Assembly: GCA_025927765.1 (NCBI GenBank)
Contig: JAICKU010000039.1
Coordinates: 1 to 35,889, forward strand
Length of the DNA: 35,889 bases
Direction of reading: 5' to 3'
From: Burkholderiales bacterium
Lineage (GTDB): Bacteria; Pseudomonadota; Gammaproteobacteria; Burkholderiales; Casimicrobiaceae
Part shown: piece by piece, positions 3,352 to 23,579 of the stretch
How positions within the stretch are numbered: the stretch's first letter is position 1
Layout: each line of letters begins with the position of its first letter
The notes under the pieces: model-generated
Told to the model about the DNA's origin: nothing
Seen by the model: the letters and a program-made list of their open reading frames with translations, nothing else
Databases searched by the model: none
Position numbers and translations under genes: made by a program

Positions 3352-4076
3352 GGCGCATCGCGACTTCGGCGGCGCCGCACGTTGTGCGGCTCCCAGGACT
3401 CGACGCGCTGCGCGGCCTCGCGATCGTCGCGATGATCGGCTACCACTTCTGCTTCGACCTGCGCTATTTCGGCATCACGCGTTCCGACTTCGAGCACGAC
3501 ATTCGCTGGCTGACCGCGCGGTCGGTGATCCTGTCGTCGTTCCTGCTGATCGCCGGGGTGAGCGCCGTGCTCGCATCGCGTCAGCCGCAGCCGCGTCGGC
3601 CCTGGCTGCGGCACATCGGGGTGATCGCCGGCGCGGCGCTGCTCGTCACGGCCGGCAGCGCGCTCCTGTTTCCGCGCTCGTTCATCTGGTTCGGCGTACT
3701 GCACGCGATCGCCGTGTCGCTGCTGATTGCGAAGCTGCTCGTTCGTCGCCCGGCGGTCGCCGCGGTCGCCGGCGCGATCGTCATCGCCGCGGGAATCGTC
3801 TACACGAATCCGGCGTTCGACCATCGCTGGCTGGGCTGGCTCGGCTTCATGAGGGCGAAGCCGGTCACCGAAGACTACGTGCCGCTCTTCCCGTGGATGG
3901 GGGTGCTGTTCATCGGCATCGCGCTCGGGCATGCACTCGTTGCCAATCGCTTCGCGATTCTTGCCCCGCTGCGTGCGCTGCCGGGCTGGCTGCCGTTCCT
4001 CGGGCGCCACAGCCTCGTCGTCTACCTCGTTCACCAGCCGATCCTGCTCGGTCTCCTCGCGCTCGTCGCCGCCTGA
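3348..4076 (+). CDS. DUF1624 / heparan-alpha-glucosaminide N-acetyltransferase-like membrane protein
   Basis: Integral membrane protein of the bacterial DUF1624 family, related to the catalytic domain of the lysosomal transmembrane acetyltransferase HGSNAT. The bacterial substrate is not known. I choose GTG 3348, which overlaps the gspN stop (GTGA) and gives 242 residues, the family norm. The N-terminus has the family signature RLPGLDALRGLAIVAMIGYH, with His33 in the first membrane segment, followed by about six more hydrophobic segments. A conserved FPWMGVLFIGIALGH stretch and the C-terminal LGRHSLVVYLVHQPILLGL, typical of this fold, are present. Cotranscription with gsp genes is inferred from the overlap and need not mean a role in secretion. 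Confidence 0.85.
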   Translation: MRRIATSAAPHVVRLPGLDALRGLAIVAMIGYHFCFDLRYFGITRSDFEHDIRWLTARSVILSSFLLIAGVSAVLASRQPQPRRPWLRHIGVIAGAALLVTAGSALLFPRSFIWFGVLHAIAVSLLIAKLLVRRPAVAAVAGAIVIAAGIVYTNPAFDHRWLGWLGFMRAKPVTEDYVPLFPWMGVLFIGIALGHALVANRFAILAPLRALPGWLPFLGRHSLVVYLVHQPILLGLLALVAA

Positions 4077-4081
4077 GCAAA

Positions 4082-4100
4082 GGTAGGGTCGGACCCTGCC
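4082..4100 (+). terminator. Short GC hairpin after the gsp/DUF1624 operon
   Basis: GGTAGGG and CCCTGCC can pair around a five-base loop six bases after the stop codon. Only a weak GTTTA follows, so this may be a poor intrinsic terminator. It may equally be a remnant of an extragenic palindrome, since the sequence GCAAAGGT followed by a GGACC-type core recurs at 26585-26600. Confidence 0.4.
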
Positions 4101-4132
4101 GTTTACGCGCGGCGCGGATCGGCGGATACTGC

Positions 4133-4145
4133 ATCGTAATACGAT
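4133..4145. promoter_or_regulatory. Operator-like palindrome upstream of the MFS gene
   Basis: ATCGTA and TACGAT form a perfect 13-base palindrome around a central A, 145 bases before the MFS start. The core fits the published FadR-subfamily GntR consensus t.GTa.tAC.a. An AT-rich TATAAA at 4145-4150 directly follows it, but no good -35 is seen. The regulator is unknown. The rest of 4077-4290 shows no gene. Confidence 0.4.
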
Positions 4146-4290
4146 ATAAACGGGCCGCCGCGAAGGCGCGCCCGAGGTGGCGCGGCGCGTGATTCGCGCC
4201 GCGCCGGAAGACGACCGCCGCCGCGGCTCGATCAACGCCCATCGCAATCGGGCGGCCCCGTCGTCGAATCTCGCGTCGATGGAGGACAAC

Positions 4291-5613
4291 ATGAGCACCG
4301 TATTGCCGCAGACCGCAACGCCCTCCGCCGTTCCCGTCAATCGCTGGTGGCAGATGCTGCTGGGCTTCGTCGCGATGATGGCGATCTCGAGCCCGCAGTA
4401 CACGTGGACGCTGTTCCTGCACTCGCTCGAAGGCAAGCTCGGTGCGTCGCTCGCGCAGCTGCAGGTCACGTTCTCGCTCCTGATCGTGCTGCAGACGTTC
4501 TGCTCGCCGGTGCAGGCGTGGCTCGTCGACCGCTTCGGGCCGCGGCTGCTCATCTCGATCGGCTGCGCGCTCTCGGGATTGAGCTGGGTGCTGTCGTCGT
4601 ACGTGACGAACATCTGGGCGCTCTACTTCACCTACGGCATCATCGGCGGCTTCGGCACCGGCATCGTGTACGTCGGCATCATCGGCCACATGGTTCGATG
4701 GTTCCCCGATCGGCGCGGCTTCGCCGCCGGCATCGCCGCGGCCGGCTACGGCGCCGGCGCGATCATCACGTCGTTCCCGATCGCCAACATGATCCCGACG
4801 TCGGGCTACGCGCATACGCTCTTCGTCTGGGGCTGGATCCAGCTCGTGGTCGGCGTGATCGTGAGCCAGGGGTTCCGGCTGCCCGAACCCGGTTGGGTGC
4901 CCGCCTCTACGTTCGCGGCGAACGCGGCGCGCAACGATCGCCAGTCGCAACACAGCTTCCGCGCGCGCGAGATGCTGCGCACGCCGGTGTTCTGGGTGAT
5001 GTTCATCATGATGTCGATGATGGCGACGAGCGGCCTCATGGTCGTGTCGCAGGTCGGCCCGTTCGCGGCGGACTTCGGCGTCAAGGACACGCTCGTGCTC
5101 GGCCTCGCGGCGCTGCCGCTGTCGCTCACGCTGTCGCGCGCCACCAATGGCCTCACGCGGCCGTTCTTCGGCTGGGTGTCGGACCACATCGGCCGCGAGA
5201 ACACGATGTTCATCGCGTTCGCGCTCGAAGCCGCGGCGATCTTGCTGCTGCTGCTGTTCGCACACAACGCGGCGGTGTTCGTCGTGCTGACCGGCCTCGT
5301 GTTCTTCGGCTGGGGCGAGATCTTCTCGCTGTTCCCGTCGACGCTCACCGACCTCTTCGGCACGCGATACGCGACGACCAACTACGGTTTCCTCTACATC
5401 GCGCAGGGCGTGGGCTCGGTGCTCGGCGGACCGGTCGCCGCCTACATTCGCGAAGCGACCGGCAGTTGGACGACCGTGTTCGTGATCGTGATCGTGCTCG
5501 ACGTGATCACGGCGCTGCTGGCGGTCACCGTGCTGCGGACGCTGCGCAAGCGCTGGCTCGCGCGTTCCGCTGCATCGAGCGTCACGGCGGCGGCCGGCGC
5601 GACACCTGCATAG
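4291..5613 (+). CDS. MFS transporter, oxalate/formate antiporter type
   Basis: Twelve-helix major facilitator of the oxalate:formate antiporter (OxlT) group, predicted to exchange a dicarboxylate such as oxalate for formate across the inner membrane. The start is ATG 4291, because GGAGG lies five bases upstream; the frame is open further up but has no such site. The 440-residue product begins its first helix at about 20. It carries motif A variants in the loops after helix 2 (WLVDRFGPRLL) and helix 8 (GWVSDHIGRENTMF), the OxlT-like glycine-rich YGIIGGFGTGIVYVG, and AAGYGAGAIITSFP. No oxalyl-CoA decarboxylase or formyl-CoA transferase lies nearby, so the substrate is a family-level inference; related MFS proteins carry other carboxylates. 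Confidence 0.85.
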   Translation: MSTVLPQTATPSAVPVNRWWQMLLGFVAMMAISSPQYTWTLFLHSLEGKLGASLAQLQVTFSLLIVLQTFCSPVQAWLVDRFGPRLLISIGCALSGLSWVLSSYVTNIWALYFTYGIIGGFGTGIVYVGIIGHMVRWFPDRRGFAAGIAAAGYGAGAIITSFPIANMIPTSGYAHTLFVWGWIQLVVGVIVSQGFRLPEPGWVPASTFAANAARNDRQSQHSFRAREMLRTPVFWVMFIMMSMMATSGLMVVSQVGPFAADFGVKDTLVLGLAALPLSLTLSRATNGLTRPFFGWVSDHIGRENTMFIAFALEAAAILLLLLFAHNAAVFVVLTGLVFFGWGEIFSLFPSTLTDLFGTRYATTNYGFLYIAQGVGSVLGGPVAAYIREATGSWTTVFVIVIVLDVITALLAVTVLRTLRKRWLARSAASSVTAAAGATPA

Positions 5614-5677
5614 CGCAGGATGACATATCGAACGGCGGCTCCCGCATGTTGGAATCGGATAGAATGCGCGCTTCGGC

Positions 5678-5754
5678 AGGCGCGTAGCTCAGCTGGTTAG
5701 AGCACCACCTTGACATGGTGGGGGTCGTTGGTTCGAGTCCAATCGCGCCTACCA
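5678..5754 (+). tRNA. tRNA-Val(GAC)
   Basis: A 77-base cloverleaf. Acceptor arm AGGCGCG pairs with CGCGCCT, the D arm contains AGCTCAGCTGGTTAGAGC, and the anticodon stem CCACC/GGTGG encloses the loop TTGACAT with anticodon GAC. The T arm has GGTTCGAGTCC, and the CCA end is encoded. A TAGAAT box at 5660-5665 is a plausible -10; no convincing -35 is seen. Confidence 0.96.
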
Positions 5755-5764
5755 ACGCATTCGA
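5741..5764. repeat. tRNA-Val 3' end, left copy of a possible attachment repeat
   Basis: The last bases of tRNA-Val and the ten bases after it recur imperfectly at 16687-16709. The shared blocks in order are AATCGCGC, ACCAAC and TTCGA. The 3' ends of tRNA genes are common integration sites, and the two copies enclose the minus-strand catabolic operon. There is no integrase in the window. Confidence 0.45.
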
Positions 5765-5766
5765 TC

Positions 5767-5792
5767 GCGCGGTGCGCCTCGGCACTCCGCGC
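5767..5792. terminator. Hairpin between tRNA-Val and the convergent amidase gene
   Basis: GCGCGG/CCGCGC with an inner TGC/GCA pair can form a stem in the short gap between convergent transcripts. CTCCTTT follows on the plus side, which is a weak tract. It may act in both directions. Confidence 0.35.
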
Positions 5793-5844
5793 GCTCCTTT
5801 AGCGATGCGCACGGCCCTTGCGTTACCCGGATGCGCTGCCTGCG

Positions 5845-7227
5845 CTACATCAGTCCTTGTGGTCTGCGCAGATGCCAGTCGGTCGCTGCCTGCCACGCTC
5901 GGCCAACGCGGATCAGTGTGGCCTCGTCGCCTGGCTTGCCCACGAACTGAACCCCGACCGGCATTGCATTCTGGGTGAAACCGGCCGGTAGCGACACCGC
6001 GCATGCGCCAAGGTAATTGACGGCGCGCGTAAAGGTGCCCAAGGCGGGCGACCCTTCGTCGAACTGCGACAGCGGACAGGCCGAATAGGGCGAAGTGGGG
6101 GTCACGACGAGATCGACGTTTGGCGTCGACAGAAGCCAGTTCGCGCGCAGGCGTTCCCGCGTGGCCCGCAGGGCGAGCAGGCACGAACGCGTCGTTCCCT
6201 TGCCTTGCGATACGCGTTCGCGTATCCAGTGCCCAATGGGCAGGCCGGAATTTTCGATGTAGGACGCGTGCACGCCCCACGCCTCCGCCGCAATGAGTTC
6301 CCGGCAGCGCCGGCCGAAGTCCTCGAAGTCGATCGGGACCGGGCCCTCGACGATCTGCGCTCCGCAATCGCGCAGGAAGCGGCGTACCTCCAAGACCGCG
6401 CCGACGACGTCGTCTTCGACGCATGCCGGCAGCTTGTCGGCTAGAACAGCGACTCGCAATCCGGAAAGATCGAGAGTCGTTCGGGTCGGTGCCATCGGGT
6501 CCGGCGGTACGTTTTCGCGCGCCATGACCGCAAAAAGCGACGCACAGTCGTCGATCGTGTGCGCCATGGGGCCGAGCGTGTCCAACGTCGGCGACAGCGG
6601 CAACGTCCCCGCGAGGTCGATCGAACCGGGAGTCGTCTTGATGCCCGTAATGCCGACGAGGGACGCCGGAATTCGCACGGAACCGCCTGTGTCCGACCCG
6701 ATCGCCGCCGGCGCGAGCCCGGCGGCGACCGCGACGCCGGATCCGCTCGACGATCCGCCCGGTATTCGATGCACGTCGAGGTCCCAGGGGTTTCGCGGCG
6801 TACCCATGAACTCGTTTGCTCCTGACGTTCCAAACGCAAACTCGACCATCGCGGTCTTCCCGAGCACGACCATTCCCGCGGCTTGCACACGCCGCACCAC
6901 GGCGGCAGTCGTCGTACTGCGCCTTTTCCGCCACGCCGCCGAGCCGCACGTCGTGATTTCGCCCTCGATCTCGAAAAGATCCTTGACCGCGATCGGCACG
7001 CCGTCGAGCGGTCCGCGCGGGCAACCGTCGTTTCGTCGCCTGTCGGACGCCTGCGCGGCGCGAAGCGCGCTTTCGCCCTGTACGTTGACAAACGCCTGGA
7101 GGATCGGGTCGAGGCGCGCGATGCGGTCGAGAAAGAGTTCCGTCAGCGCGGTTGCCGACCAGGCATTCGACCGAAGCGCCTGCGCGAGGTCCGACAGGCT
7201 CGAGAACGGGTCCACGGCCAGCGTCAC
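5845..7227 (-). CDS. Amidase-signature hydrolase
   Basis: Amidase-signature family enzyme that hydrolyses a C-N amide bond in the cytoplasm. The 460-residue protein carries the full Ser-cisSer-Lys triad. Lys82 lies in VPIAVKD, the cis-Ser is Ser159 in the GGSSSGSG segment (157-164), and the nucleophile is Ser183 in GSDTGGS (177-183). The start is taken at GTG 7227; Shine-Dalgarno support is weak and a GTG at 7215 is an alternative. It is the last gene of the catabolic operon, 37 bases after the flavin reductase-like gene. Allophanate hydrolase and many aryl or acyl amidases share this fold, so the substrate cannot be read from the sequence. With the neighbouring importer and DUF1989 protein, a nitrogen-rich amide or ureido compound is plausible. 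Confidence 0.88.
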   Translation of the reverse strand: MTLAVDPFSSLSDLAQALRSNAWSATALTELFLDRIARLDPILQAFVNVQGESALRAAQASDRRRNDGCPRGPLDGVPIAVKDLFEIEGEITTCGSAAWRKRRSTTTAAVVRRVQAAGMVVLGKTAMVEFAFGTSGANEFMGTPRNPWDLDVHRIPGGSSSGSGVAVAAGLAPAAIGSDTGGSVRIPASLVGITGIKTTPGSIDLAGTLPLSPTLDTLGPMAHTIDDCASLFAVMARENVPPDPMAPTRTTLDLSGLRVAVLADKLPACVEDDVVGAVLEVRRFLRDCGAQIVEGPVPIDFEDFGRRCRELIAAEAWGVHASYIENSGLPIGHWIRERVSQGKGTTRSCLLALRATRERLRANWLLSTPNVDLVVTPTSPYSACPLSQFDEGSPALGTFTRAVNYLGACAVSLPAGFTQNAMPVGVQFVGKPGDEATLIRVGRAWQAATDWHLRRPQGLM

Positions 7228-7264
7228 CGGCGAGACCGACGGGCCCGATCGGTCGAGACCGATG

Positions 7265-7885
7265 TCAGATGACCTCGTACGGACCCATGGCCCGATTGGG
7301 ATTCATGCGCACGACGTCGCCGAGCTTTGCATACGTGGGGCCGGCCAGTCGACCCACGGGCCGAAGGCGCTCGCTGTCGATCTTGCCGTCGATGCACAAG
7401 CCATCGCGAACATGAAACAGCTGCACCTCGCCCACCATGAACTCGGACCCCGATCGGCCGAATCGAAGCACCTGGACCAGCTTGCATTCCGCCGCAATGG
7501 GCGCGTGCGCGAGCCTTGGAACCGAAACGGCTTCGCTTGCGAGCGTCTCGAGGCCGAGCGCGTGCGCCTCCCCTACGTCGGCGGGAAACTCGTCCGCGGA
7601 AGCATGTAGCGCTCCCAGCATGGAATCGTCGGCGATGTGGACGACGTACTCGCCGGTTCGGTGAATGTTCCTGGCCGTATCCTTCCTTTCCCCGCGCTTC
7701 GGACCGACGGTGAAGCCGAGCAACGGGGGATCGCTCGACAGGAACATGAAGCAGCTGAATGGCGCGAGATTCACGACGCGCGGGCTGGAAAGCGTCGTCA
7801 CCCACGCAATCGGCCTCGGCACGACGATACCGATGAGCAGTTTGTAGGCATCCGCCGGTGCGATCTTGCGTGGATCGATCTTCAT
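7265..7885 (-). CDS. Flavin reductase-like FMN-binding split-barrel protein
   Basis: 206 residues of the flavin reductase-like family, which binds FMN in a split barrel and often reduces flavin with NAD(P)H. Family features are the N-terminal LLIGIVVPRPIAWVTTLSS, then NLAPFSCFMFLSSDPPLLGFTVG (about 39-61) and KDTARNIHRTGEYVVHI. The start at 7885 is preceded by GAAGGGGG, a good ribosome site. No flavin-dependent monooxygenase lies in the operon, so either this protein serves a distant partner or it has its own catalytic role. It may also support an oxidative step alongside the Rieske enzymes, but those already have their own reductase gene. The call is at family level. Confidence 0.85.
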   Translation of the reverse strand: MKIDPRKIAPADAYKLLIGIVVPRPIAWVTTLSSPRVVNLAPFSCFMFLSSDPPLLGFTVGPKRGERKDTARNIHRTGEYVVHIADDSMLGALHASADEFPADVGEAHALGLETLASEAVSVPRLAHAPIAAECKLVQVLRFGRSGSEFMVGEVQLFHVRDGLCIDGKIDSERLRPVGRLAGPTYAKLGDVVRMNPNRAMGPYEVI

Positions 7886-7925
7886 TCAACCCCCTTCGAG
7901 CCCATGCGCATCGCCGTCGCGAACG

Positions 7926-8666
7926 TCAGCGGTCGCGCGCAATCGGCCGTCGTCCGCTGCGTATACGGCGCCTGCTGTGCTCCAGATGGCGCCGAACGAG
8001 TCGTTCGGCGCGTTTTGGATCACGATCGCGCAGCGCGTGAAGAATGTCCTCGTGATCCTTAAGCGCCTGCACGCTCGCGCCCTGGGTGAACTGGCCGAGC
8101 GCCTGCTCCCCGATGAAGAATTCGCGATACGCATTGACCATCTGGATCAATCGTTCCGACCTGGACGCTGCGCAAATCAGTTGATGGAATTCCGTATTGA
8201 TGCGCACGCGCGACGTCAGGTCGTGCGGATCTGAGTTGCGAGTCGCTTCGACCAGCTCCCGCAGCCGCGCGAGTTCCGCATCGGTCACACGCTCGGCGGC
8301 GAGCGCGGCGGCGCAGCCTTCCAGCGCTTCGCGGATGCGATAGATGTCGTCGAGCTCGAATTGCGTGTCCACCACCTCGACCCCACCGCTCGAGTGGGGG
8401 CTGACGAGCCCATCGCTGGTCAGGCGCGATATCGCCTCGCGCACCGGCGTTCGGCTCGCGCCGAGCTTCCTTGCGATGTTGGACTCGACAAGCCGCGTCC
8501 TGCCTTGGATTTCACCGTTGACGATCGCCCGTCGCAGCCTTCGGTACACCTGATCGGCGATGGTATTGTCCGCGCCGCTTCGACTGCTTGCCCACCCGAG
8601 CTTGTCCTCATCCACCGATTTCCCGGACTCGCCCTCTGTCCCGGCCGCGGAAACGCTTCGTCTCAT
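7926..8666 (-). CDS. GntR-family transcriptional regulator, FCD (FadR) subfamily
   Basis: Metabolite-responsive repressor or activator. I choose ATG 8666 because AGGA lies eight bases upstream, giving 246 residues; in-frame ATGs at 8681 and 8747 are alternatives. Residues 35-100 form the winged helix-turn-helix, containing IADQVYRRLRRAIVNGEI and ARKLGASRTPVREAISRLTSDGLV. Residues 105-235 form the all-helical FCD ligand domain, with its usual metal-site elements FHQLI, DHEDI and RRHLEHS. The first position usually filled by Asp appears as Asn in NTEFH. It sits inside the operon and is the only regulator there, so it is the natural candidate to bind the palindrome at 16453-16474. That link is an inference. 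Confidence 0.88.
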   Translation of the reverse strand: MRRSVSAAGTEGESGKSVDEDKLGWASSRSGADNTIADQVYRRLRRAIVNGEIQGRTRLVESNIARKLGASRTPVREAISRLTSDGLVSPHSSGGVEVVDTQFELDDIYRIREALEGCAAALAAERVTDAELARLRELVEATRNSDPHDLTSRVRINTEFHQLICAASRSERLIQMVNAYREFFIGEQALGQFTQGASVQALKDHEDILHALRDRDPKRAERLVRRHLEHSRRRIRSGRRPIARDR

Positions 8667-8747
8667 CTTTTCATTCCTCATCCATGCACGCCGGTTTCGC
8701 GCCGGCGTGGCAAGACAGGCCGACGTGACGATGCCTGATCGGCGCAC

Positions 8748-9440
8748 TCATCGCGAGACGACGAATTGGAGTTCCCGCGGGTGATGGCCGTTGACTTGAT
8801 TCAAGTCCTGAGGACAGGCGGACATCACGACCACGCAGTCCATCATCGCCTTGAACTCCACGTAGTCGCCAGGCTTCGAGACGGTTGCCTCGAGCGTAAA
8901 CCGGCCATCCCGGTCGATCGGGATGTTCATCCAGATGTTGAACGGCTGGGGAATCTCCCGGGTACGCAAGCCGATTGCGATCAGCGCTTGGCGCAGGTTG
9001 TCCGAGCAATTGTCGTGATACGCCTCGACGCCGAGCGTGCGATAGCGCCAGATATCGCAAGCGGCGATGAACGTGTCGTGAATGCCCGGGGACGTATCAG
9101 CGACAAACCCGAGGATCGGGCGCCGGCGATTCGTCAGGAGATCGTCGCCGCTTTTCGGATTGACGTGTCCTGCGGCCAGCCGCGAATGCTCGCCCGAAAA
9201 GAATTCGCTGAGATCGTCCGCATTGAACGCCCACATGTCGCACACCTGGGTACCGTGCGTATTGATGATCCTGATCCGCTCTCCCGCCTTGAGCCTCACG
9301 GCTCTCCCTTGGCGGGCCGGAACGAAATAGACAGTTCCCGGCGCCGGCGATCCGTCCGTGGAGATTGCGTTCTTCACGGTGTCGTTGACCGTATCCGGGT
9401 CGCCGTTGTCGCGCTCACAACATTGCGGGAGCGTACTCAT
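8748..9440 (-). CDS. DUF1989 / urea carboxylase-associated family protein
   Basis: 230-residue member of the family annotated as urea carboxylase-associated protein (DUF1989). Two paralogues of this family form carboxyguanidine deiminase in guanidine degradation. Conserved blocks are INTHGTQVCDMWAFNADD (59-76), GDDLLTNRRRPIL (98-110), DTSPGIHDTFIAACD (115-129), YHDNCSDNL (141-149) and MDCVVVMSACPQD (200-212); the His and Cys residues are likely metal or catalytic ligands. Only one copy is present here, and there is no biotin-dependent carboxylase, so the known guanidine route is not encoded as such. The gene lies between the ABC ATPase and GntR genes of the operon, which suggests a role in handling an imported C-N compound. 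The exact reaction is unknown. Confidence 0.88.
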   Translation of the reverse strand: MSTLPQCCERDNGDPDTVNDTVKNAISTDGSPAPGTVYFVPARQGRAVRLKAGERIRIINTHGTQVCDMWAFNADDLSEFFSGEHSRLAAGHVNPKSGDDLLTNRRRPILGFVADTSPGIHDTFIAACDIWRYRTLGVEAYHDNCSDNLRQALIAIGLRTREIPQPFNIWMNIPIDRDGRFTLEATVSKPGDYVEFKAMMDCVVVMSACPQDLNQVNGHHPRELQFVVSR

Positions 9441-9486
9441 GATGGTTTGCCTTTCCGCATAACCGTTGAATCGCGAGCAAGGCCCG

Positions 9487-10302
9487 TCAAAGAACCTTGC
9501 TGAGAAAGTCGATCGTTCGCCGCTCGGCCGGATTGGCGAGTACGGACTCCGGCGATCCGGACTCGACGACCGAGCCTTCGTCCATCATCGCCACGGTGTC
9601 CGCGACTTCGCGCGCGAATCCGATTTCGTGAGTCACGACGACCATTGTCATTCCCTGCTTTGCGAGGTCCTTCATCACCGCGAGGACCTCTCCCACCATC
9701 TCGGGATCGAGCGCCGACGTCGGCTCGTCGAACAGCAATGCGCGCGGCCGCATTGCCAACGCGCGAGCGATGGCAGCGCGTTGCTGCTGGCCGCCGGAAA
9801 GCTCCTCGGGGTAGCAGTTGGCCTTGGCCGCCAATCCCACCCCGCCGAGAAGGTCGAGCGCCCTTTTCGTCGCACTCGCCCGCTGCTCCTTCAGCACGAC
9901 GATGGGCCCCTCGACGATGTTTTCGAGGACGGTCTTGTGCGGGAAGAGATTGAAATTCTGAAATACCATGCCCATGGTCGCGCGCAGCCTGCACATGGAT
10001 GCCGACGAGGCCTTTTTCCGTCGCCCGCGCGAATCCTTGAGGTATCCGACCAACTGTCCCGAGTAGTAGATCTCTCCCTCGTGGTATTCCTCGAGGCAGT
10101 TGATGCAGCGAAGCAGCGTGCTCTTCCCCGACCCGCTCGGTCCGATCACGACCGCGACCTCGCCGGAGCGCACGTTCAGGTCGACACCGCGCAACACGTC
10201 GAGCGCGCCATAGCGCTTTCGAACGCCACGAACCTCGATCAGCGGGGCGCCTGCTTTCCCGGCAACGGCGGACGACACCTCGCGTTCGTCGACAGTCGTC
10301 AC
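9487..10302 (-). CDS. Polar amino-acid-type ABC transporter, ATP-binding protein
   Basis: ATPase of a PAAT-family importer (GlnQ/HisP type). The start is GTG 10302, which overlaps the permease stop (GTGA) and gives 271 residues. Walker A is GPSGSGKS (54-61), the Q-loop is at Gln115 in [12 protein letters not shown], the signature is LSGGQQQR, Walker B is LLFDEP, and the switch is VVTHE. A 20-residue basic insertion ([19 protein letters not shown], about 88-106) sits between Walker A and the Q-loop, as in several family-3 systems. With the adjacent single permease gene it would form an importer in which the permease acts as a homodimer. Confidence 0.93.
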
Positions 10303-10964
10303 CGCGATGTCCGCCCGGACTTCCGGTCGAGGTAGCCCGCCAGCGCGATGATGGGCAACACGAGGATCGCATAAATCACCGCAATGGCCGTATACGTCTC
10401 CATCGGCCGGAACGTGAAGGAAATGACATTGTCCGCCGCGTGCAGCAGCTCGGGCACCGCGATGACCGAGGCCAGCGAGGTCAGCTTCATCAGGGAGGCG
10501 AACTCGTTGACGAGCGGAGGCACCATCCGTTTGAATGCCTGCGGAAGGATGATTCGCTGCATCGACTGGCGATATGACATGCCGATCGCCCGTGCCGCGT
10601 ACATCTGTCCCTTGTCGATCGATTTGATGCCGGCACGAAAGATCTCGCCGACGTAGGCGCCCTCGTGGAGCCCGAGCGTCAGAAGCACCGACACGAAGCC
10701 GCTGAGTTGAACGCCGGTGATGACCGGCAGGGCGAAGTAGACCCATACGACCTGCACGAGCGTGGGTGTCGCCCGAAAGAGTTCGACGTAAATTCCCGAT
10801 ACCCACGACAGCCAACGGTAGCTGCTCGCGCGCAGCATGCCAATGCAAGGCCCCAGCACTCCACCGATGGCAGCCGATCCGATGGTCAGCACCAACGTCG
10901 TCAGCGCGCCCTGAATCAGCAGCGAGTGGTACGAAAGGACCATGCCGAGATTGAAATTGCTCAT
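10299..10964 (-). CDS. Polar amino-acid-type ABC transporter, permease
   Basis: 221-residue inner-membrane permease of the HisM/GlnP family with about five membrane segments. The EAA coupling loop reads [20 protein letters not shown]. The upstream [14 protein letters not shown] segment is typical of amino-acid permeases. Only one permease gene is present. The gene follows the binding-protein gene after an 86-base gap that holds a strong hairpin, and its end overlaps the ATPase start. Confidence 0.93.
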
Positions 10965-11013
10965 GGCATCGCGTCGTTTGGCATCTCGGAATGACGGAGG
11001 TCAAGAGCGTGCG

Positions 11014-11040
11014 GGCGCGCGACGCCGCCGTGCGCGCGCC
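11014..11040 (-). other. Intercistronic hairpin between binding-protein and permease genes
   Basis: GGCGCGCG and CGCGCGCC form a perfect eight-pair stem with an eleven-base loop just after the binding-protein stop. Such stems often protect the binding-protein mRNA, giving more binding protein than permease. No T tract follows, so it is probably not a full terminator. Confidence 0.5.
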
Positions 11041-11050
11041 ACCGCAGCGC

Positions 11051-11893
11051 CTATTGACCGAACGGCTTGTACGTTTCCTCGACGATGAAGTGGCCCTTGG
11101 TCGGGAACCGGCTGGCGATCGTCTCCAGCATCCCGTTGATGCGCATGTTTTCGAGCGCCGTGTTCAGAAACTGCAGGAATTCCGTATCGCCATGCCGGAC
11201 GGTCCACGCGATCGCCTGCACGTTGAAGGGTTTGTCCGGGAAGAGGTTGACCATCGTCGGATGCTCGTTGATGTATCGGGTCGTCGCCCAGACGTCTTCG
11301 ATTGCCACGTCCGCCCGCTTGGCGTCCACCGCGGCCAGATCCGCCGTGAGATCGGACGTGTTGAGGGTGACGATTTCTGCGTTCTTGAAGGTGCGGCGCA
11401 CGAAATCCTGACCCCCGCCGCCAAGGATCACCGCAACCTTGACCCCCGCTTTGTCGATGTCGGCGAGCGTCTTGAATCGATTGTCGTCTTTTCGAGCCGA
11501 GGCGGTATAGCCCATGTAGTTGATCGGCACGGTGAAACTGACCGCCGACGCGCGGCCGATCGTCGCGAACGTCCCGCCGACGACGAGATCGAACTGCTTG
11601 GCCTGAAGGCCCGCGGCGAACGTCGACCACGACGTCTCGACGAACTCCGGCTTGACCTTGATCTGATCGAAAATATACTTGACGATGTCGATGTACGTGC
11701 CCGTCACCTCCCCGGACTTCGGGTCCTTGTACGCCGTGGGTGGCGCCGATATCCAGCCCACCTTCAGCGTTCTCTGCTGCAACATCCTTTGCATGGAGTC
11801 CTGCGCGTGTGCAGGCGCTGTACTCAGGATGCCGAAGAATGCCGCCAGCATCACCATCAGACACAGTTTCGTTGCCAACCTCGCGACTTTCAT
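11051..11893 (-). CDS. Family-3 (polar amino-acid-type) ABC substrate-binding protein
   Basis: Periplasmic receptor of the importer. The start at 11893 has GAGGAGG five bases upstream. The first 30 residues are a signal peptide ([20 protein letters not shown], ending APAHAQ). The mature part shows the family order: [32 protein letters not shown], then [24 protein letters not shown], then [15 protein letters not shown]. The usual ligand alpha-amino-binding Arg/Asp pattern is only partly conserved: [12 protein letters not shown] replaces the common R...FS.PY. This fits a ligand that is not a standard amino acid, for example an N-methylated or cationic one. The ligand is unknown. Confidence 0.9.
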
Positions 11894-11934
11894 GGATACC
11901 TCCTCGATGTGGGGACGTGCCGGGTCAAGCGTCG

Positions 11935-12930
11935 CTAATACTGGCGTGCCGGGTCGACCTGATTGACCAGCGCGCGGTCCTCCTTGAACCTCTTGTAGTT
12001 GTCGAAGAAAAGCTTCGCGGTGTCGATCGCGTAGCGTTCCGTGTCGTCCGACGACACGTGCGGTGTGATGATCAGGTTCGGCACGTTCCATATCGGCGAG
12101 GCTGCCGGGATCGGCTCTTCGTCGAACACGTCCAGGATCGCTCCGGCGATCGCGCCAATCGAAAGCCTCTCGAACAGCCGGCCGTAGTCGATCACTGCCG
12201 CCCTCCCGATGTTGACGAGTCCGCAATGCCTGGGGAGGCGGTCGAGTTGCCTCACCCCGATCATGTGCCTCGTCTTGTCCGTCAGCGGAAGCGCAACGAC
12301 GAGAAAATCGGCCAGGCCGAGCACCTCGTCCAGCGCGTCGACAGCCCACACCATGTCGAATCCGTCGACCGGACGTCCCGTCGAATTGACGCCGACGACC
12401 TGCATCTCCAGGCCCTTGCACCGCCTGGCGCCCGACGCTCCCATGTTCCCGGTACCGACGATGACGACCGTCTTCCCCGCGATGCAGGAGGCAAACCTGC
12501 GATCCCATGACCGCGCGGCCTTGCACGTCGCGAAATGGGGAATGTTCGCGTTGAGCGCGAGTATCGCCATCGCGATGTACTCCCCTGCCTTGCGCGCGTG
12601 GACACCGGAGTTGTTCGTCAGCGTGACGCCGGACGGCACCCAGTCCATCGGCAGCAAATGCTCGATCCCGGCACCCGTTACGTGGATCCATCTCAACCCG
12701 GGTGCGCGCGCGGCGAGATCATGACGGGGGAAGCGCCATCCCATCAGGCAATTGGCGGTCGTCATGGCACGTTCGAGGATGTCGCCATCCCAGCCGTAGG
12801 TGACGGACAGTTCCGCCATGTCGACGCCGCTCTCGACCGCCGCCGTCGCGACACGCTGGGGCGTGACATGGAACACCGGCGCTTGCGCGCTCAGGTTCTC
12901 GATATGCAGGTGAAACACAGGTCGGCTCAT
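11935..12930 (-). CDS. D-isomer-specific 2-hydroxyacid dehydrogenase
   Basis: NAD(P)-dependent oxidoreductase interconverting a 2-oxoacid and a D-2-hydroxyacid, 331 residues. The nucleotide-binding motif is GTGNMG (159-164). The catalytic triad Arg243 (LVNIGRAAVID), Glu272 (DVFDEEP) and His291 (ITPHVSS) is complete. The subfamily resembles glyoxylate/hydroxypyruvate reductases of the GhrA type, although Gly-Arg-Ala replaces the usual Arg-Gly after the catalytic Arg region. Its stop lies one base from the preceding Rieske gene's downstream end, so the two are closely spaced in one operon. It suggests that the pathway yields a 2-oxo or 2-hydroxy acid. Confidence 0.9.
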   Translation of the reverse strand: MSRPVFHLHIENLSAQAPVFHVTPQRVATAAVESGVDMAELSVTYGWDGDILERAMTTANCLMGWRFPRHDLAARAPGLRWIHVTGAGIEHLLPMDWVPSGVTLTNNSGVHARKAGEYIAMAILALNANIPHFATCKAARSWDRRFASCIAGKTVVIVGTGNMGASGARRCKGLEMQVVGVNSTGRPVDGFDMVWAVDALDEVLGLADFLVVALPLTDKTRHMIGVRQLDRLPRHCGLVNIGRAAVIDYGRLFERLSIGAIAGAILDVFDEEPIPAASPIWNVPNLIITPHVSSDDTERYAIDTAKLFFDNYKRFKEDRALVNQVDPARQY

Positions 12931-14118
12931 TTACACCGCACTCCGCTTCTGCACGCCTGATTCCTGCCGCTGTTCGCCCTCAGTGAGCCGATCGGCGATC
13001 CAATTTCCAATTCGATGGACCAGTTCTTCCATGTGCGACAGCCGGCCGGGCTCCGCATACGGGGAGCGAATGCCCTTCTGCTGCAATTCCGAGATGTCGT
13101 TGTCCTCCCGGACCGACGTCGCCCATCGGCGTTCATAGCGCTTGACGACCTCCTCGAAGTCGTCGCGTTGCACCGTTTCGTTCGGAAAACAGGAGCCGAC
13201 GATGAGGCGCATCCTTTCCGGGCCGAGAGGATGCACCTCGAACCACCACATGCAATCGATGGTGCAGCCGAACATCGTGCTCGGGTAGATCAGCGTGTAA
13301 TAGGTGCCGAGCGCAGCCAGCCCTTCGAGCCCCCGGATCGCCGGAAAACCGGTCTCGCCGGCGAGCAGGGCACGCGAGCCATCGTGTCTCGTATGCAGGC
13401 CGCACCAGTTGCCGCGCGACGGCACCACGGGCGGCAACTCCCGCTTGAGTTTTTGCAGCGACTTCGCGTGCACCATCGCCACGTGATAGGCCTCCATGGC
13501 GTTCTCAGCATAGATCTTCCAGTTGCAGTCCAACTCGTACTCAACGCGCCCCGCCTGCTTCATGTCGCCGAAACGGTAGGACGCGAGCGTCGACGGCAGA
13601 TCGCCGAGGTACTCCATCAGACTTTCCGCGCCCAGATCGAAGTTGATGAAGACAAACCCCTCCCAGGTTTCCAACCGTATTCGCTTCAGCGGGTAGCACG
13701 CGCGGTCGAATCCTTCGGTGTGCTGCATCTCGGGAGCGGCGATCAGCCGGCCGCCCGCGTCGTACGACCATCCGTGATACGGGCAGACGAGCACCTTCGC
13801 ATTGCCCTGCCCTTCGACCAGCTTCGCTCCACGGTGACGGCAGGTGTTGGCGTACGCATTCAGTCCACCTTCCCTGTCGCGGATGACGATGATCGGAACG
13901 CCGACAAAGTCCAACGTGAAGTAGTCACCCGGCAACGGGATATGGTCGGCGCGGCCGATGAAATTCCATACCTTCATGAAGATGTGCTCGACTTCGCGAT
14001 CGTAGAAATCGCGCGAGTAGTAGCACTGCGGCGGAAGCGTTTCCGCGAGCGGAAACGGAAGTCGTACCTTGGCGAAGAAGTCGGGTGCCAACGGGACGCG
14101 TGATGTACGCATCTTCAT
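12931..14118 (-). CDS. Rieske non-heme iron oxygenase alpha subunit (second copy)
   Basis: 395-residue oxygenase component. The Rieske [2Fe-2S] ligands are Cys93/His95 (CRHRG) and Cys112/His115 (CPYHGW). The mononuclear iron ligands are His212 and His217 in ENAMEAYHVAMVH, with an Asp in REDNDISELQQKG (339 or 341) as the third. The bridging residue is Glu209 rather than the Asp of ring-hydroxylating dioxygenases. Glu here is a feature of CntA-like enzymes that oxidise quaternary ammonium substrates. No beta subunit is encoded. The protein is clearly homologous to the product of 15199-16392 but diverged, so the two may act on successive substrates or form a hetero-oligomer. It probably shares the single reductase encoded upstream. 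Confidence 0.92.
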   Translation of the reverse strand: MKMRTSRVPLAPDFFAKVRLPFPLAETLPPQCYYSRDFYDREVEHIFMKVWNFIGRADHIPLPGDYFTLDFVGVPIIVIRDREGGLNAYANTCRHRGAKLVEGQGNAKVLVCPYHGWSYDAGGRLIAAPEMQHTEGFDRACYPLKRIRLETWEGFVFINFDLGAESLMEYLGDLPSTLASYRFGDMKQAGRVEYELDCNWKIYAENAMEAYHVAMVHAKSLQKLKRELPPVVPSRGNWCGLHTRHDGSRALLAGETGFPAIRGLEGLAALGTYYTLIYPSTMFGCTIDCMWWFEVHPLGPERMRLIVGSCFPNETVQRDDFEEVVKRYERRWATSVREDNDISELQQKGIRSPYAEPGRLSHMEELVHRIGNWIADRLTEGEQRQESGVQKRSAV

Positions 14119-14161
14119 AGCCTCTCTGGAGATGTTGCCTCGGTGACGTCTTCTGCGTTTC

Positions 14162-15202
14162 CTACGCGCTCACCGCGTCGCGCCTCGCGACGTCGGCGGA
14201 AGTCAGGAACGGGTCCGCATAGCACGACTGCCTGGAAATGCCGAGGGCACGGAGAACGCCCAGAACGGCATCGACCATCGGAGGCGGACCGGCGACGTAG
14301 GCCGACCACGAACGAATGTCGACCCCATGCAGATCCTCCTCGAGCGCGGCATGGAGAAAGCCCGCCCGGTGACGCGAGTCCGCGTCGGGTTCCGAGAGCA
14401 CGATGTCCACGGAAACGTTGTCATGCGACGCGACCAATTCGCGCAATTCGCTCTCGAGGTAGATGTCGCGCGCAGCGCGAACGCCGAGATAAACGTGGAT
14501 CGCCTGTCGCATGCCGCGATCGACCGCGCACCGGACAATCGACCGGATGGGTGCGAGTCCCGAGCCGCCGGCAATGGCCAGCATCGGACCGAGCGATGCC
14601 TCGCGAAGGTACGCACCACCGAAAGGACCCCTCACGGTCAGCGCGTCTCCTACCGCCAGTGACTTGAGTGCGCCATCGGTCACGCGGCCGCCAACGATCG
14701 TTCGGATGAAGAATTCGAGGTGGCCCTGCCCGGGCGGATTCGCCATCGAGAAGTCTCGGGAATCCGAATCGGGCAACGACACCCTGCAATACTGGCCGGG
14801 CAGAAACACGAATGACGGGTCGGCGGCAACCGTGACGCGCGTGATGTCGTGCGTGAGCTTGGAGACGCCGAGGACGGGCGCCTGGAATTGCGTGACGCCC
14901 GGGAGATCCGCTTCCTGCATCACCGGAGAGATCGTGCAATCGGAGAGCGGCTTCGCGCGACAGCAGAGAATCAGGCCGCCTTCCCTCTCCACGCCGGTCA
15001 ACGCGGATTCATAGTATTCGTCGTGACGGACGTCGCCGTGGATCAATCGGGATTTGCACAATCCGCACAGGCCGCTCTCGCAGCCATGGGGATAGTCGAT
15101 GCCTGCGTCGAGCAACGACTGCAGGATCGGCCTGTCGGCATCGCCTACGACGGAGATTTCGCGACCCTTCACGTTCAGCATCGGGGGTTGCGACGTGCTC
15201 AT
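14162..15202 (-). CDS. Rieske oxygenase reductase: plant-type ferredoxin, FAD and NAD domains
   Basis: 346-residue electron-transfer protein that passes electrons from NAD(P)H via FAD to a [2Fe-2S] centre and on to the oxygenases. The N-terminal ferredoxin domain has Cys41, Cys46 and Cys49 (HGCESGLCGLCK) with the fourth ligand at Cys80 or Cys81 (ILCC). The FAD domain has the RDFSMANPP form of the R-x-Y-S motif and a GRVTDGAL segment. The NAD domain has LAIAGGSGLAPIRSIV and ends with YVAGPPPMVDAV. Ferredoxin at the N-terminus is the order seen in BenC or DmpP, opposite to that of CntB or VanB. The start overlaps the upstream oxygenase stop by ATGA, indicating coupled synthesis. Confidence 0.92.
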   Translation of the reverse strand: MSTSQPPMLNVKGREISVVGDADRPILQSLLDAGIDYPHGCESGLCGLCKSRLIHGDVRHDEYYESALTGVEREGGLILCCRAKPLSDCTISPVMQEADLPGVTQFQAPVLGVSKLTHDITRVTVAADPSFVFLPGQYCRVSLPDSDSRDFSMANPPGQGHLEFFIRTIVGGRVTDGALKSLAVGDALTVRGPFGGAYLREASLGPMLAIAGGSGLAPIRSIVRCAVDRGMRQAIHVYLGVRAARDIYLESELRELVASHDNVSVDIVLSEPDADSRHRAGFLHAALEEDLHGVDIRSWSAYVAGPPPMVDAVLGVLRALGISRQSCYADPFLTSADVARRDAVSA

Positions 15203-16392
15203 CGGATCGAACCGGCGTCGCCAAGCACACGGTCGAGCACCCAGTTGTCGATCGCGTGAACGTTGGCCTCGTTCGGCGCGTAACGGCCGGCACGCACCGG
15301 ATGGTTCGACGCAAGGCCGCGCTGCTGCAATTCGCAGATTTCGTTGTCCTCGGCGATCGTGATGTCCCAGCGCTTGAAGTAATTATTCACGACGTCCGCA
15401 AAATCGGGACGCTCGACAGTCTCACGGGGGAAGAGCGAGCCCACGGTCAAGCGAGTGTGCGAAGCATCCTTCGGCTCGACCTGCAGGTACCAGCAACAAT
15501 CGATCGTCGCGCACAGTCCGAGGTGCGGGTAAACCAATGGAAAGTACGATCCGTTCGCCGCCTTCTCGTCCAGCGTGCGGATCGGAGGAAAGCCTTTGTC
15601 CTCCCTGAACAACGCCATGCTGCCGTCGTGACTCGCGAAGCTGACCAGGTACTCGCCGCGAGTCGTTTCGGGAACATACCCGGCGACCCGAACCGAAGCG
15701 TAGGTGTCGATCGTGCTGCGATGAACGGTCGCGAGGTGGTACGACTCCTTGAAGTTTTCGATGAGCAGCTTCCAATTGCATTGCAGCTCGTACGTTTCCT
15801 TTCGGACGGTAACCAGGTCCCCCATGCGATGCGAGGCGAGCGTGCGCTTCAAGTCACCGAGATGTTCGTCGAGGGGAGCATGACCCGGATTCAGGTTCGC
15901 GAACAGGAAGCCCTCCCACTCGGCGAACCCGATGCCGACGAGGGGATACTCGTTCTTGTCGAAACCGTCGACGCCCTCCATTCCGGGCGCGCTCAGCAGA
16001 TCGCCATCCAGCGAATAGCACCAACTGTGGTACGGGCAAGTCAGGACGCGTCGATTTCCATGGCCGCGGACCATCTCGGTGCCACGATGCCGGCATGAGT
16101 TCACGAAGGCGCGTATCTGCCCCGACCGACCGCGTACGACGACGAGCGGCACGCCGGCGAGCAGCGTAGTGAAGTAGTCGCCGGACTTCGGGATGTCCTC
16201 CGCCCGCCCGACCATGATCCATTCGCGGGCGAATATGCGATCGCGCTCGCGCGCGAAGAACTCGCTCGACGTATAACACCACGCCGGAAGCTGGCTCGCC
16301 TCGAGAAGCGGCCGCCTTACGTCCGCATAGAGGCGCGGGTCCAATAAGTCCCCAGGGGAATCGACGTGAGTGATCGATGAACGGTATTCCAT
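15199..16392 (-). CDS. Rieske non-heme iron oxygenase alpha subunit (first gene of operon)
   Basis: 397-residue oxygenase component and first gene after the operon promoter. Rieske ligands are Cys100/His102 (CRHRG) and Cys119/His122 (CPYHSW). The iron site is His219 and His224 in ENFKESYHLATVH, with the Asp of AEDNEICELQQRG as likely third ligand. The bridging residue is Glu216, again a CntA-like feature. I take ATG 16392 as start; ATG 16413 is also possible and the choice is not decisive. Upstream open frame beyond that crosses the promoter and is not coding. The reductase gene overlaps its stop codon. Family knowledge supports N-demethylation or hydroxylation of a betaine-like compound; the substrate itself is not known. 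Confidence 0.92.
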   Translation of the reverse strand: MEYRSSITHVDSPGDLLDPRLYADVRRPLLEASQLPAWCYTSSEFFARERDRIFAREWIMVGRAEDIPKSGDYFTTLLAGVPLVVVRGRSGQIRAFVNSCRHRGTEMVRGHGNRRVLTCPYHSWCYSLDGDLLSAPGMEGVDGFDKNEYPLVGIGFAEWEGFLFANLNPGHAPLDEHLGDLKRTLASHRMGDLVTVRKETYELQCNWKLLIENFKESYHLATVHRSTIDTYASVRVAGYVPETTRGEYLVSFASHDGSMALFREDKGFPPIRTLDEKAANGSYFPLVYPHLGLCATIDCCWYLQVEPKDASHTRLTVGSLFPRETVERPDFADVVNNYFKRWDITIAEDNEICELQQRGLASNHPVRAGRYAPNEANVHAIDNWVLDRVLGDAGSIR

Positions 16393-16452
16393 GGCGGTTC
16401 TGGCCTCGTGCATGCGTTCGGCCTGGCGCCTCGCGTTACGACGCGGGCGTCG

Positions 16453-16474
16453 CTGCATACAGCACGGTATGCAG
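16453..16474. promoter_or_regulatory. Inverted-repeat operator downstream of the operon promoter
   Basis: CTGCATAC, six bases, then GTATGCAG: a perfect palindrome with eight-base arms. It begins about twelve bases downstream of the minus-strand -10 box, so a bound protein would cover the first transcribed bases and repress. The GntR/FCD protein of the same operon is the likely ligand. Confidence 0.65.
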
Positions 16475-16485
16475 CAGTGAATACC

Positions 16486-16514
16486 AGAATACGAGGCGAA
16501 TTGATCCATGTCAA
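16486..16514 (-). promoter_or_regulatory. Sigma-70 promoter of the Rieske/ABC/amidase operon
   Basis: On the minus strand TTGACA (16509-16514) is followed by 17 bases and TATTCT (16486-16491). This is a near-consensus promoter and the best one in this divergent gap. Transcription would start near 16479 and give a leader of about 90 bases before the oxygenase start. The rest of the gap (16515-16718) shows only the repeat at 16687 and the ribosome site of the plus-strand gene. Confidence 0.7.
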
Positions 16515-16686
16515 TGCAGAGATCGGCGCCACGTACTAGGTGCGCCGCAGCAATCGATGCGGAAAGCAAGACGAGGAAGTTGCATCTCGATTTGTCCTCC
16601 CTGGCTTCTCGGATATCGTGGAGGGACGGCCGCCACGCGCATTTGCGGCGCGACGAAGAAGCGTAATGGCCGTAAGGCGTCACAAG

Positions 16687-16709
16687 AATCGCGCGCACCA
16701 ACCCTTCGA
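16687..16709. repeat. Imperfect second copy of the tRNA-Val 3' end
   Basis: This 23-base segment matches 5741-5764 in about 20 positions with one gap. It lies in the same orientation and marks the far side of the minus-strand operon. It could be the second end of an integrated islet. It overlaps the leader of the next plus-strand gene. Confidence 0.4.
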
Positions 16710-16718
16710 GAGGAACAC

Positions 16719-17738
16719 ATGCGTCTTCGCCATTTGCCGCTCCGCCTGATCGTCGCGGCGCTCCTCGTCTTTGCGACCGTGCACGCACGCGCCGCCGAAG
16801 TCGACGAAGTCACGCTCGCCAAGCAGTTCGGCATCGGCTCGCTGACCTTCATCGTCATGGAGCAGCAGAAGCTCTACGAGAAGGCACTCGCGGCGGCGAA
16901 CGTCGGACATCCGGTCAAGGTGCGCTGGGTCAAGTTCACCGGCGGCGCGGCGATGAACGACGCGATCCTCTCCGGCGACTTGAGCTTCGCACTCGCCGGC
17001 GTGGGTCCGCTCGCGACGATGTGGGCGAAGACGCGCGACAACCTCAAGGTGATGGGCGTATGCGCGGCGAACTCGATGCCGATGCTGCTCAACACGCGCG
17101 ACCCGAACGTGAAGACGATCGCCGACTTCTCGAGCCGGAACAAGATCGCGCTGCCCGGCGTCAAGGTGTCGATCCAGGCGATCCTGCTCGAGATGGCCGC
17201 GGCGCAGGCGTTCGGCGACGACCAGTACGCGAAGCTCGATCCGCTGACGACGACGCTGTCGCACGCCGACGGCATGGCCGAGCTGCTGTCGCCGAACTCA
17301 CCGATCGACAGCCACTTCACCTCGCCGCCGTACAGCTACCAGGAACTCGAGCATCCGGGCATTCATACGGTGCTGAACAGCTACAAGATCCTCGGCGGCC
17401 CGGGCACGCTCAACACGGTGTACGCGACGACGCGCTTCCGCGCCGAGAATCCGAAGGTGTACGCGGCGTTCCTCACCGCGTTCAGGGAAGCGACCGACTT
17501 CATCAACCATGACAAGCGCGCCGCGGCGCGGCTCTACCTGCAAGGGTCGAACGACAAGTCGCTGACGGAAGACGAGCTCGTGAAGATGCTCGAAAACCCC
17601 GACATCCGCTACACGATGGTGCCCGAGGGTACGATGAAGGTCGTGTCGTTCATGCACAAGCATGGCCGCATCAAGGTCGAGCCCAAGGCGTGGAGCGACA
17701 TGTTCTTTCCCGAGGTGCACGACCTGCCCGGGAATTGA
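16719..17738 (+). CDS. NitT/TauT-family ABC substrate-binding protein, orphan
   Basis: Periplasmic binding protein of the nitrate/sulfonate/aliphatic-compound family (SsuA/TauA/NMT1-like), 339 residues. The start is ATG 16719 with GAGAGG five bases upstream; the longer open frame crosses the divergent promoter. Residues 1-25 are a signal peptide ending ARA-AE. The mature part begins with VTLAKQFGIGSLTFIVMEQQKLYEKA, followed by VKWVKFTGGAAMNDAILSG-like sequence, and FALAGVGPLATMWAKT follows. No permease or ATPase gene of this family is near, so it must use a distant or shared transporter. It is transcribed away from the catabolic operon and may be unrelated to it. Confidence 0.85.
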   Translation: MRLRHLPLRLIVAALLVFATVHARAAEVDEVTLAKQFGIGSLTFIVMEQQKLYEKALAAANVGHPVKVRWVKFTGGAAMNDAILSGDLSFALAGVGPLATMWAKTRDNLKVMGVCAANSMPMLLNTRDPNVKTIADFSSRNKIALPGVKVSIQAILLEMAAAQAFGDDQYAKLDPLTTTLSHADGMAELLSPNSPIDSHFTSPPYSYQELEHPGIHTVLNSYKILGGPGTLNTVYATTRFRAENPKVYAAFLTAFREATDFINHDKRAAARLYLQGSNDKSLTEDELVKMLENPDIRYTMVPEGTMKVVSFMHKHGRIKVEPKAWSDMFFPEVHDLPGN

Positions 17739-19841: not shown

Positions 19842-19855
19842 GTTTACCTTCCCCG

Positions 19856-20566: not shown

Positions 20567-20588
20567 GCGTTGATCGTCATCCAGCCCT

Positions 20589-22579: not shown

Positions 22580-22616
22580 ACCTCGGCCTCGTCGGACCGT
22601 CGGGATCGCGCCCCGC

Positions 22617-23537: not shown

Positions 23538-23579
23538 CGAGTTGCGTGCGACCGGTGGCAGCAGCGACTATCGCGCGCG

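Follow-up and report, generated by a model that had tools for sequence, protein, structure and literature searches.

An eleven-gene block with two alpha-only Rieske oxygenases and a DUF1989 protein beside tRNA-Val: a possible islet for oxidative C-N cleavage

Introduction

The alpha-only Rieske oxygenases of group V and the proteins of the DUF1989 family provide the closest described comparisons for a gene block in Burkholderiales bacterium of the Casimicrobiaceae (NCBI GenBank assembly GCA_025927765.1). The block lies at positions 5845-16392 on the minus strand of contig JAICKU010000039.1, of which we analysed positions 1 to 35,889, hereafter the window. CntA, placed with YeaW in group Va, needs E205 for electron transfer and uses Y203 to hold the quaternary amine; a pi-cation aromatic residue two positions ahead of the bridging Glu is the mark of the group, according to PMC7948474. 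GbcA represents group Vb. Within the DUF1989 family, PMC12560246 describes demethylation of trimethylamine N-oxide (TMAO), where the isolated domain is inactive, and PMC11271267 describes CgdAB, a pair with one inactive partner that deiminates carboxyguanidine. PMC8319176 tabulates one DUF1989 gene.

The block arranges known families in a new way. We found no description of this gene set in the open-access literature, most subscription papers being out of reach. For the homarine pathway (homABCDER), the literature search also turned up no description of such an operon. No described cluster matched in our searches, in agreement with a sequence-only reading of the window that knew of no named pathway with this set. 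We tentatively propose that the block is an acquired islet for the oxidative C-N cleavage of an amino-acid-like N-substituted compound with release of a 2-oxo acid, a reading that we hold to be possible though somewhat short of probable.

Gene content and order

Eleven closely spaced genes fill the interval, and their coordinates and order were re-checked. Transcription order runs from Rieske oxygenase A (15199..16392; 397 amino acids; PF00355 and PF00848; ENFKESYHLATVH) and a reductase of 346 amino acids that overlaps it in an ATGA (14162..15202), through Rieske oxygenase B (12931..14118; 395 amino acids; PF00355 and PF00848) and a directly abutting D-2-hydroxyacid dehydrogenase (11935..12930; 331 amino acids; PF02826), to the three genes of an ATP-binding cassette (ABC) importer. 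These encode a periplasmic family 3 binding protein of amino-acid type with a signal-peptide-like N-terminus (11051..11893; PF00497), a permease of polar amino-acid type (10299..10964; PF00528, with TIGR01726 over its cut-off) and, in a GTGA overlap with the permease, an ATPase with a GTG start and a Walker motif (9487..10302; PF00005). They are followed by a DUF1989 protein of 230 amino acids (8748..9440; PF09347), a GntR/FCD transcriptional regulator (7926..8666; PF00392 and PF07729), a flavin-reductase-like split-barrel protein (7265..7885; PF01613; nearest solved chains 3bpk and 4z85) and an amidase-signature hydrolase of 460 amino acids with GSSSG and DTGGS motifs (5845..7227). The gaps between these genes, whose lengths depend on the start codon chosen for each open reading frame (ORF), measure -4, 43, 0, 41, 86, -4, 46, 81, 40 and 37 bases.

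The Pfam scan covered ten products, all but the amidase, and the NCBIfam scan another set of ten that included the amidase and left out the ATPase. Fer2, FAD_binding_6 and NAD_binding_1 succeed one another in the reductase, which is the domain order of BenC (Pfam). No beta-subunit domain was reported among the ten Pfam-scanned products, and the amidase, covered by NCBIfam only, matched amidase models below their cut-offs. D-2-hydroxyacid dehydrogenases are recognised by a nucleotide motif plus an Arg-Glu-His catalytic set, and this signature is intact here (GTGNMG at 159, NIGR at 240, EEP at 271 and PH at 290).

The sequence-only reading had seen ten close minus-strand genes behind one promoter. 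Their closeness and strand hold, as do the two four-base overlaps (oxygenase A with reductase, permease with ATPase), the BenC order of the reductase and the lack of a beta subunit among the products scanned; the count is eleven, and the single promoter is the other point on which that observation has to be corrected. The promoter-like TTGACA-17-TATTCT at 16514-16486 (minus strand) is a pattern match no commoner than chance, with two matches of this type found and 2.2 expected. It is plausible that a single promoter serves all eleven genes. Beside this match, in the gap that separates oxygenase A from the divergent gene, lies a perfect 9-bp inverted repeat, GCTGCATAC-N6-GTATGCAGC (16452-16475), a candidate operator; shuffling of the window is expected to yield about 0.01 such matches, with up to three mismatches counted.

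Recurrence of the gene set

A scan of genome contigs retained 80 loci, and in two loci from metagenome-assembled genomes, L044 (Acetobacteraceae) and L045 (Alphaproteobacteria), eight families recur together. They comprise both oxygenases, the dehydrogenase, the flavin protein, the three transporter genes and the DUF1989 protein at 38-62% identity, the flavin-protein partners being 47% and 40% identical in L044 and L045, respectively. The L045 copy of oxygenase A, at 7005-8132, is 53% identical; one comparison returned the B copy as the best L045 match to A. A third such locus, L043, likewise holds eight families, with oxygenase B as its only oxygenase of the pair: B is 65% identical and the reductase 52%, the dehydrogenase, transporter and DUF1989 families are represented, and an amidase homolog (33%) lies several kb off.

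Dehydrogenase homologs occur in six of the ten best loci and in one of the 70 others (Fisher p 4.7e-6), and DUF1989 homologs in five of the ten and none of the 70 (Fisher p 1.0e-5); both p values are only a guide, as the cut at ten was chosen after the table was seen, several contigs are short and the loci are non-independent. The flavin protein is found in 2/10 and 0/70, and the reductase in 1/10 and 2/70, the latter being partial weak matches. Around a flavin-reductase homolog with 55% identity in an unannotated stretch of Variovorax (L178), no other operon gene was matched. The view of the operon as a single catabolic unit, with an amino-acid-type importer, a pair of alpha-only Rieske oxygenases and C-N hydrolases, is supported. 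As a separate observation, one DUF1989 gene in L039 (6116-13341, genome G048) is surrounded by a pair of Rieske genes and a pair of D-2-hydroxyacid dehydrogenase genes.

Residues and tree position of the oxygenases

Both oxygenases have Glu at the bridging position, Glu216 within ENFKESYH in A and Glu209 within ENAMEAYH in B, as re-reading of the sequence confirmed. They were placed in a tree of 45 proteins, in which YeaW and some others are long rows and three GbcA-like rows themselves fall below the GbcA cut-off. The bridging position is Glu in 38 rows, Asp in six and without a match in one, so a bridging Glu does not mark a substrate class. The residue does separate the aromatic references from the other rows, since XylX, AntA, HcaE and the pCAR1 enzyme have Asp. 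At the column of CntA Y203, window A has Phe and its four tree orthologs have Ala, and window B and its three orthologs have Ala; the pi-cation aromatic is also absent from group Vb. With this aromatic not conserved, a quaternary-ammonium substrate lacks family-level support, and we rejected the pi-cation argument for it.

Window A clusters with L044_A, L045_A, L127 and L128, the last two from genomes of the order (99/98), and window B with L043, L044_B and L045_B (97/94). Because each oxygenase groups with its own orthologs, A and B probably diverged before the clusters of the window, L043, L044 and L045 separated. In the free tree, A and B fall in a 14-row branch of their own (83/90, not starred), outside the starred branch of XylX, AntA, HcaE and the pCAR1 enzyme (99/88) and outside the branch of the GbcA-like rows (100/99). 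When the 14 rows were held with a group named after the tree had been seen, YeaW alone was weakly rejected (p 0.035), and YeaW plus GbcA-like rows (p 0.078), aromatic rows (p 0.114) and GbcA-like rows (p 0.165) were not rejected. The oxygenases are not within the aromatic-ring or GbcA-like branches, and a sister relation to either is compatible with these tests. The tree thus does not give them the firm place among aromatic-ring enzymes that would have refuted the sequence-only reading.

Importer and DUF1989 protein

The binding protein has its nearest solved relatives among cyclohexadienyl-dehydratase-like and amino-acid binding proteins. Alignment to 5jos shows two residues kept, the Arg in a GRA motif and the Asp in ADVAIED, both at columns with which such proteins bind amino acids. 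Their retention speaks for a ligand that bears a carboxylate as well as an amino-like group, and no specific compound is indicated. The amino-acid type that had been read from the sequence is supported.

To our knowledge, few DUF1989 proteins have a known function. Residues D68, C128, H142, C145 and C209 of the window protein align with residues that TMAO demethylase uses for Zn binding and catalysis, namely D198, C263, H276, C279 and C343 in PMC12560246; the correspondence uses a numbering offset counted by hand. These metal-site residues are retained in L043, L045, L039, L050, L052 and one L044 copy. The window protein is thus probably an active metalloenzyme. It differs from TMAO demethylase in standing alone within a Rieske operon, with no GcvT domain reported by Pfam.

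DUF1989 genes were also met in other company. L044 (5716-6904) has two in tandem, of which a single copy keeps the catalytic His, a tandem that resembles the active/inactive pair reported for CgdAB. Plasmid blocks of Caballeronia (L165) and Klebsiella (L166) unite amino-acid ABC, M20, DUF1989 and cupin genes; they share with the window an amino-acid importer and a DUF1989 protein (61% and 56% identical), but no oxygenase or dehydrogenase is annotated in the stretch shown. In L166 the block of importer, M20, DUF1989 and cupin genes (2763-8326) is flanked by insertion sequences, and 19 of the 30 DUF1989 matches listed are Klebsiella plasmids at 56%.

Clues from related loci

Of the twelve best rows of plasmid dehydrogenase homologs, nine were viewed (not H89, H92 and H93), with 5-12 kb on each side. 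A Rieske gene is nearby in three, L035 (with three intervening genes), L170 and L173. Four have a luciferase-type flavin monooxygenase, which in L172 belongs to the NtaA/DmoA family over its cut-off, in L174 and L176 falls below the cut-offs of other luciferase-type models and in L175 is so called by annotation. Neither oxygenase type occurs in L171 and L177. L171 contains two DUF1989 genes, an amidase and an amino-acid importer; tblastn of its unannotated gap gave no match to either oxygenase, and an ORF there resembles a transposase fragment.

The NtaA-type operon of Rhizobium sp. ACO-34A (L172) combines a flavin mononucleotide (FMN) monooxygenase, an ABC importer, a D-2-hydroxyacid dehydrogenase and an M20 gene. 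It resembles the window in its dehydrogenase family (44%), its ABC importer and its hydrolase, and differs in having the flavin monooxygenase in place of the Rieske oxygenases and an importer of polyamine type. Replacement of a Rieske enzyme by an NtaA-type enzyme in similar company would be expected if both cleave a C-N bond and free a 2-oxo acid such as glyoxylate.

Genes of glyoxylate use accompany some of these loci. Tartronate-semialdehyde reductase exceeds its cut-off in L052 and L170, and L173 and L035 have it by annotation; malate synthase G exceeds its cut-off in L174 and is present by annotation in L175. Near related Rieske genes, Pfam reported a creatininase-family protein in L040 and arginase-family proteins in L036 (~6 kb away), L045 and L135, none of them over an NCBIfam cut-off; M20 genes were found in L039 and L045 and, by sequence reading, in L052. 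In another direction, L130 (5989-10774, genome G272) combines genes for nitrile hydratase alpha and AtzD-type and RutB-like hydrolases with a Rieske gene that shares 46% identity with window B, and looks like an uncharacterised cluster for nitrile or cyclic-amide breakdown.

Probable insertion beside tRNA-Val

The block adjoins a tRNA-Val (gac) at 5678..5754 on the plus strand. Empty sites were found in the congener loci L158 and L157. In genome G018 (L158), 68 bases separate the aligned tRNA-Val from the aligned far-flank gene, and the operon is missing; in G014, the operon is absent after the same tRNA and another ORF is present. The flanks in G011 (L155 and L159) have no tRNA and are therefore uninformative on insertion. 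The search for oxygenase A in 21 congeners, several of them drafts less than 90% complete, gave no near homolog, the best match having E 4.9e-32; of two more distant genomes, G048 from the same order reaches 6.2e-121 and G025 from the same family 6.6e-98. When the window's A and B were combined with the G025 and G048 sequences in a profile, this attained the threshold of E 1e-80 in 7/399 genomes of the order, 4/369 of the class and 2/398 of the phylum, with the own genome counted in each tally. The block has a GC content of 0.628, lower than that of the DNA on its left (0.700) and on its right (0.654).

Taken together, the absence of the operon from matching congener sites, the near homologs outside the genus and the lower GC make the block look like a catabolic islet horizontally acquired beside tRNA-Val. 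G018 may have lost the operon by deletion, though the absence from other congeners too speaks against this. An integrase-mediated insertion has no support: no integrase is encoded among the eleven genes, and no duplicated tRNA end was detected as a common word of at least 10 between 5561-5900 and 16251-16800.

Elsewhere in the window, a gene for an NMT1-type binding protein (16719-17738) has seven matches at E 1e-60 in the same genome, itself included. The interval 18711-26173 holds ABC genes of branched-chain amino-acid type and a divergent amidase gene; most of the ABC part has a match in G018, whereas G014 lacks it behind the same tRNA. A gene with a RelA/SpoT domain (34243-35547) begins immediately after a tRNA-Pro; the position directly after a tRNA is a usual place for acquired DNA.

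Discussion

We postulate the following course for the proposed islet. The GntR regulator would bind the palindrome at 16452-16475, and the ABC importer would take up an amino-acid-like N-substituted compound. The reductase would supply electrons to both alpha-only Rieske monooxygenases, which would perform two successive oxidative C-N cleavages (N-dealkylations). The freed 2-oxo acid, most likely glyoxylate or a homolog and perhaps glyoxylate itself, would be handled by the dehydrogenase. The Zn-type DUF1989 enzyme and the amidase would cut the remaining C-N bonds with release of nitrogen, and the flavin-reductase-like protein may provide a third redox step. In a distinctly speculative extension, to which we attach little probability, the oxygenases would form a new Rieske branch of 2-oxo-acid-releasing N-dealkylases, for example converting an N-carboxymethyl group to glyoxylate, in the slot of NtaA-type enzymes, with the stand-alone DUF1989 protein resolving an oxidised N-intermediate as a lyase or hydrolase.

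Several points weigh against the proposed C-N cleavage. For the dehydrogenase, oxidation of a D-2-hydroxyacid that a hydroxylase has produced is an equally possible role. Signals of glyoxylate use are few, and some of them belong to another Rieske branch or to Rieske-free operons: in L170 and L173 the Rieske genes share just 25-26% identity with window A, and the clusters L170 and L173 nearly duplicate each other, as do L174 and L175. The window operon itself has no glyoxylate-using gene except possibly the dehydrogenase. Neither L044 nor L045 yielded a homolog of the reductase or the amidase, and amidase homologs show no association with the gene set (1/10 best loci, 5/70 others).

The sequence-only reading had called both oxygenases CntA-like and hence suggested N-demethylation of quaternary ammonium compounds. 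Two CntA/GbcA-type enzymes would then N-demethylate a betaine-like compound and release formaldehyde, an outcome we consider unlikely. The oxygenases do share with CntA/YeaW the alpha-only constitution and the bridging Glu of group V, CntA is the nearest solved relative of both, betB lies near Rieske and D-2-hydroxyacid dehydrogenase genes in L170 and L173, and a branch with the GbcA-like rows was not rejected. GbcA is also the best NCBIfam match of both, but at 165 and 164 bits they stay far from its cut-off of 670. The free tree joins them neither to YeaW, a long row, nor to the GbcA-like references, the aromatic at the Y203 position is not conserved, and the window operon differs from CntA/YeaW in its BenC-order reductase and amino-acid importer. 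No formaldehyde-handling family was recognised among the eleven products in the Pfam and NCBIfam scans. Likeness to CntA gives this substrate class no specific support.

Hydroxylation at an alpha carbon, which we regard as rather improbable, would make the Rieske product a D-2-hydroxyacid that the dehydrogenase converts to a 2-oxo acid for decarboxylation by a thiamine-diphosphate enzyme. Rieske and dehydrogenase genes are adjacent in several loci, a thiamine-diphosphate enzyme is present in L052 and L048, and sequence reading adds an aldehyde dehydrogenase in L052. Against it, the same scans recognised no thiamine-diphosphate enzyme among the window's eleven genes, and the DUF1989 protein, amidase and amino-acid importer are left unexplained.

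Less probable again is the opening of an N-heterocycle (pyrimidine, barbiturate or triazine-like) by oxygenation and subsequent cyclic-amide hydrolysis. L130, with its 46% identical Rieske gene, provides an AtzD-type ring-opening hydrolase and a nitrile hydratase alpha, each above the Pfam and below the NCBIfam cut-off, together with a RutB-like hydrolase that stays below cut-off, as do the PuuE-like deacetylases of L048 and L129 and the TRZ/ATZ-type amidohydrolases of L043 and L045. The eleven genes themselves include none recognised as a ring-opening hydrolase, and other genes were not systematically searched for one.

A methylguanidine or guanidine route, in which Rieske N-demethylation precedes the action of DUF1989 as a carboxyguanidine deiminase, appears very unlikely. 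The DUF1989 protein is intact and belongs to the same family as CgdAB (PMC11271267), and arginase-family and creatininase-family genes neighbour related Rieske genes. In contrast to CgdAB and the urea-amidolyase-associated proteins, the window genome has a single DUF1989 gene, whose product scores 117.8 bits against the UAAP2 cut-off of 284.7 (NCBIfam). No urea or guanidine carboxylase partner exceeds its cut-off in this 95.6% complete genome, and no guanidine riboswitch was detected in the window at Rfam thresholds. The one methylguanidine demethylation described employs a 2-oxoglutarate dioxygenase and a separate lyase (PMC12508155). We set aside the guanidine carboxylase route on the score far below the UAAP cut-offs, the single DUF1989 gene and the negative carboxylase and riboswitch searches, and the carboxyguanidine role that the sequence-only reading had named for DUF1989 is not supported for this locus.

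Aromatic-ring dioxygenases, as suggested by the automatic annotation of relatives, the BenC-order reductase and a joint clade with aromatic references that was not rejected, are the least credible explanation; against them stand the lack of a beta subunit among the products scanned, the bridging Glu in place of Asp and the separate branch of XylX, AntA, HcaE and the pCAR1 enzyme, which does not include A and B.

The interpretation first drawn from the sequence is therefore partly supported: it was right in outline, and its quaternary-ammonium and carboxyguanidine points lack specific support. If the proposed oxidative C-N cleavage is true, a Rieske branch whose relatives default to annotation as aromatic-ring dioxygenases would gain a testable substrate class, and DUF1989 proteins a catabolic context. 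Paired oxygenases, a D-2-hydroxyacid dehydrogenase, a DUF1989 protein and one importer form a recurring set, and the missing substrate is approachable because the binding protein of this set can be screened directly.

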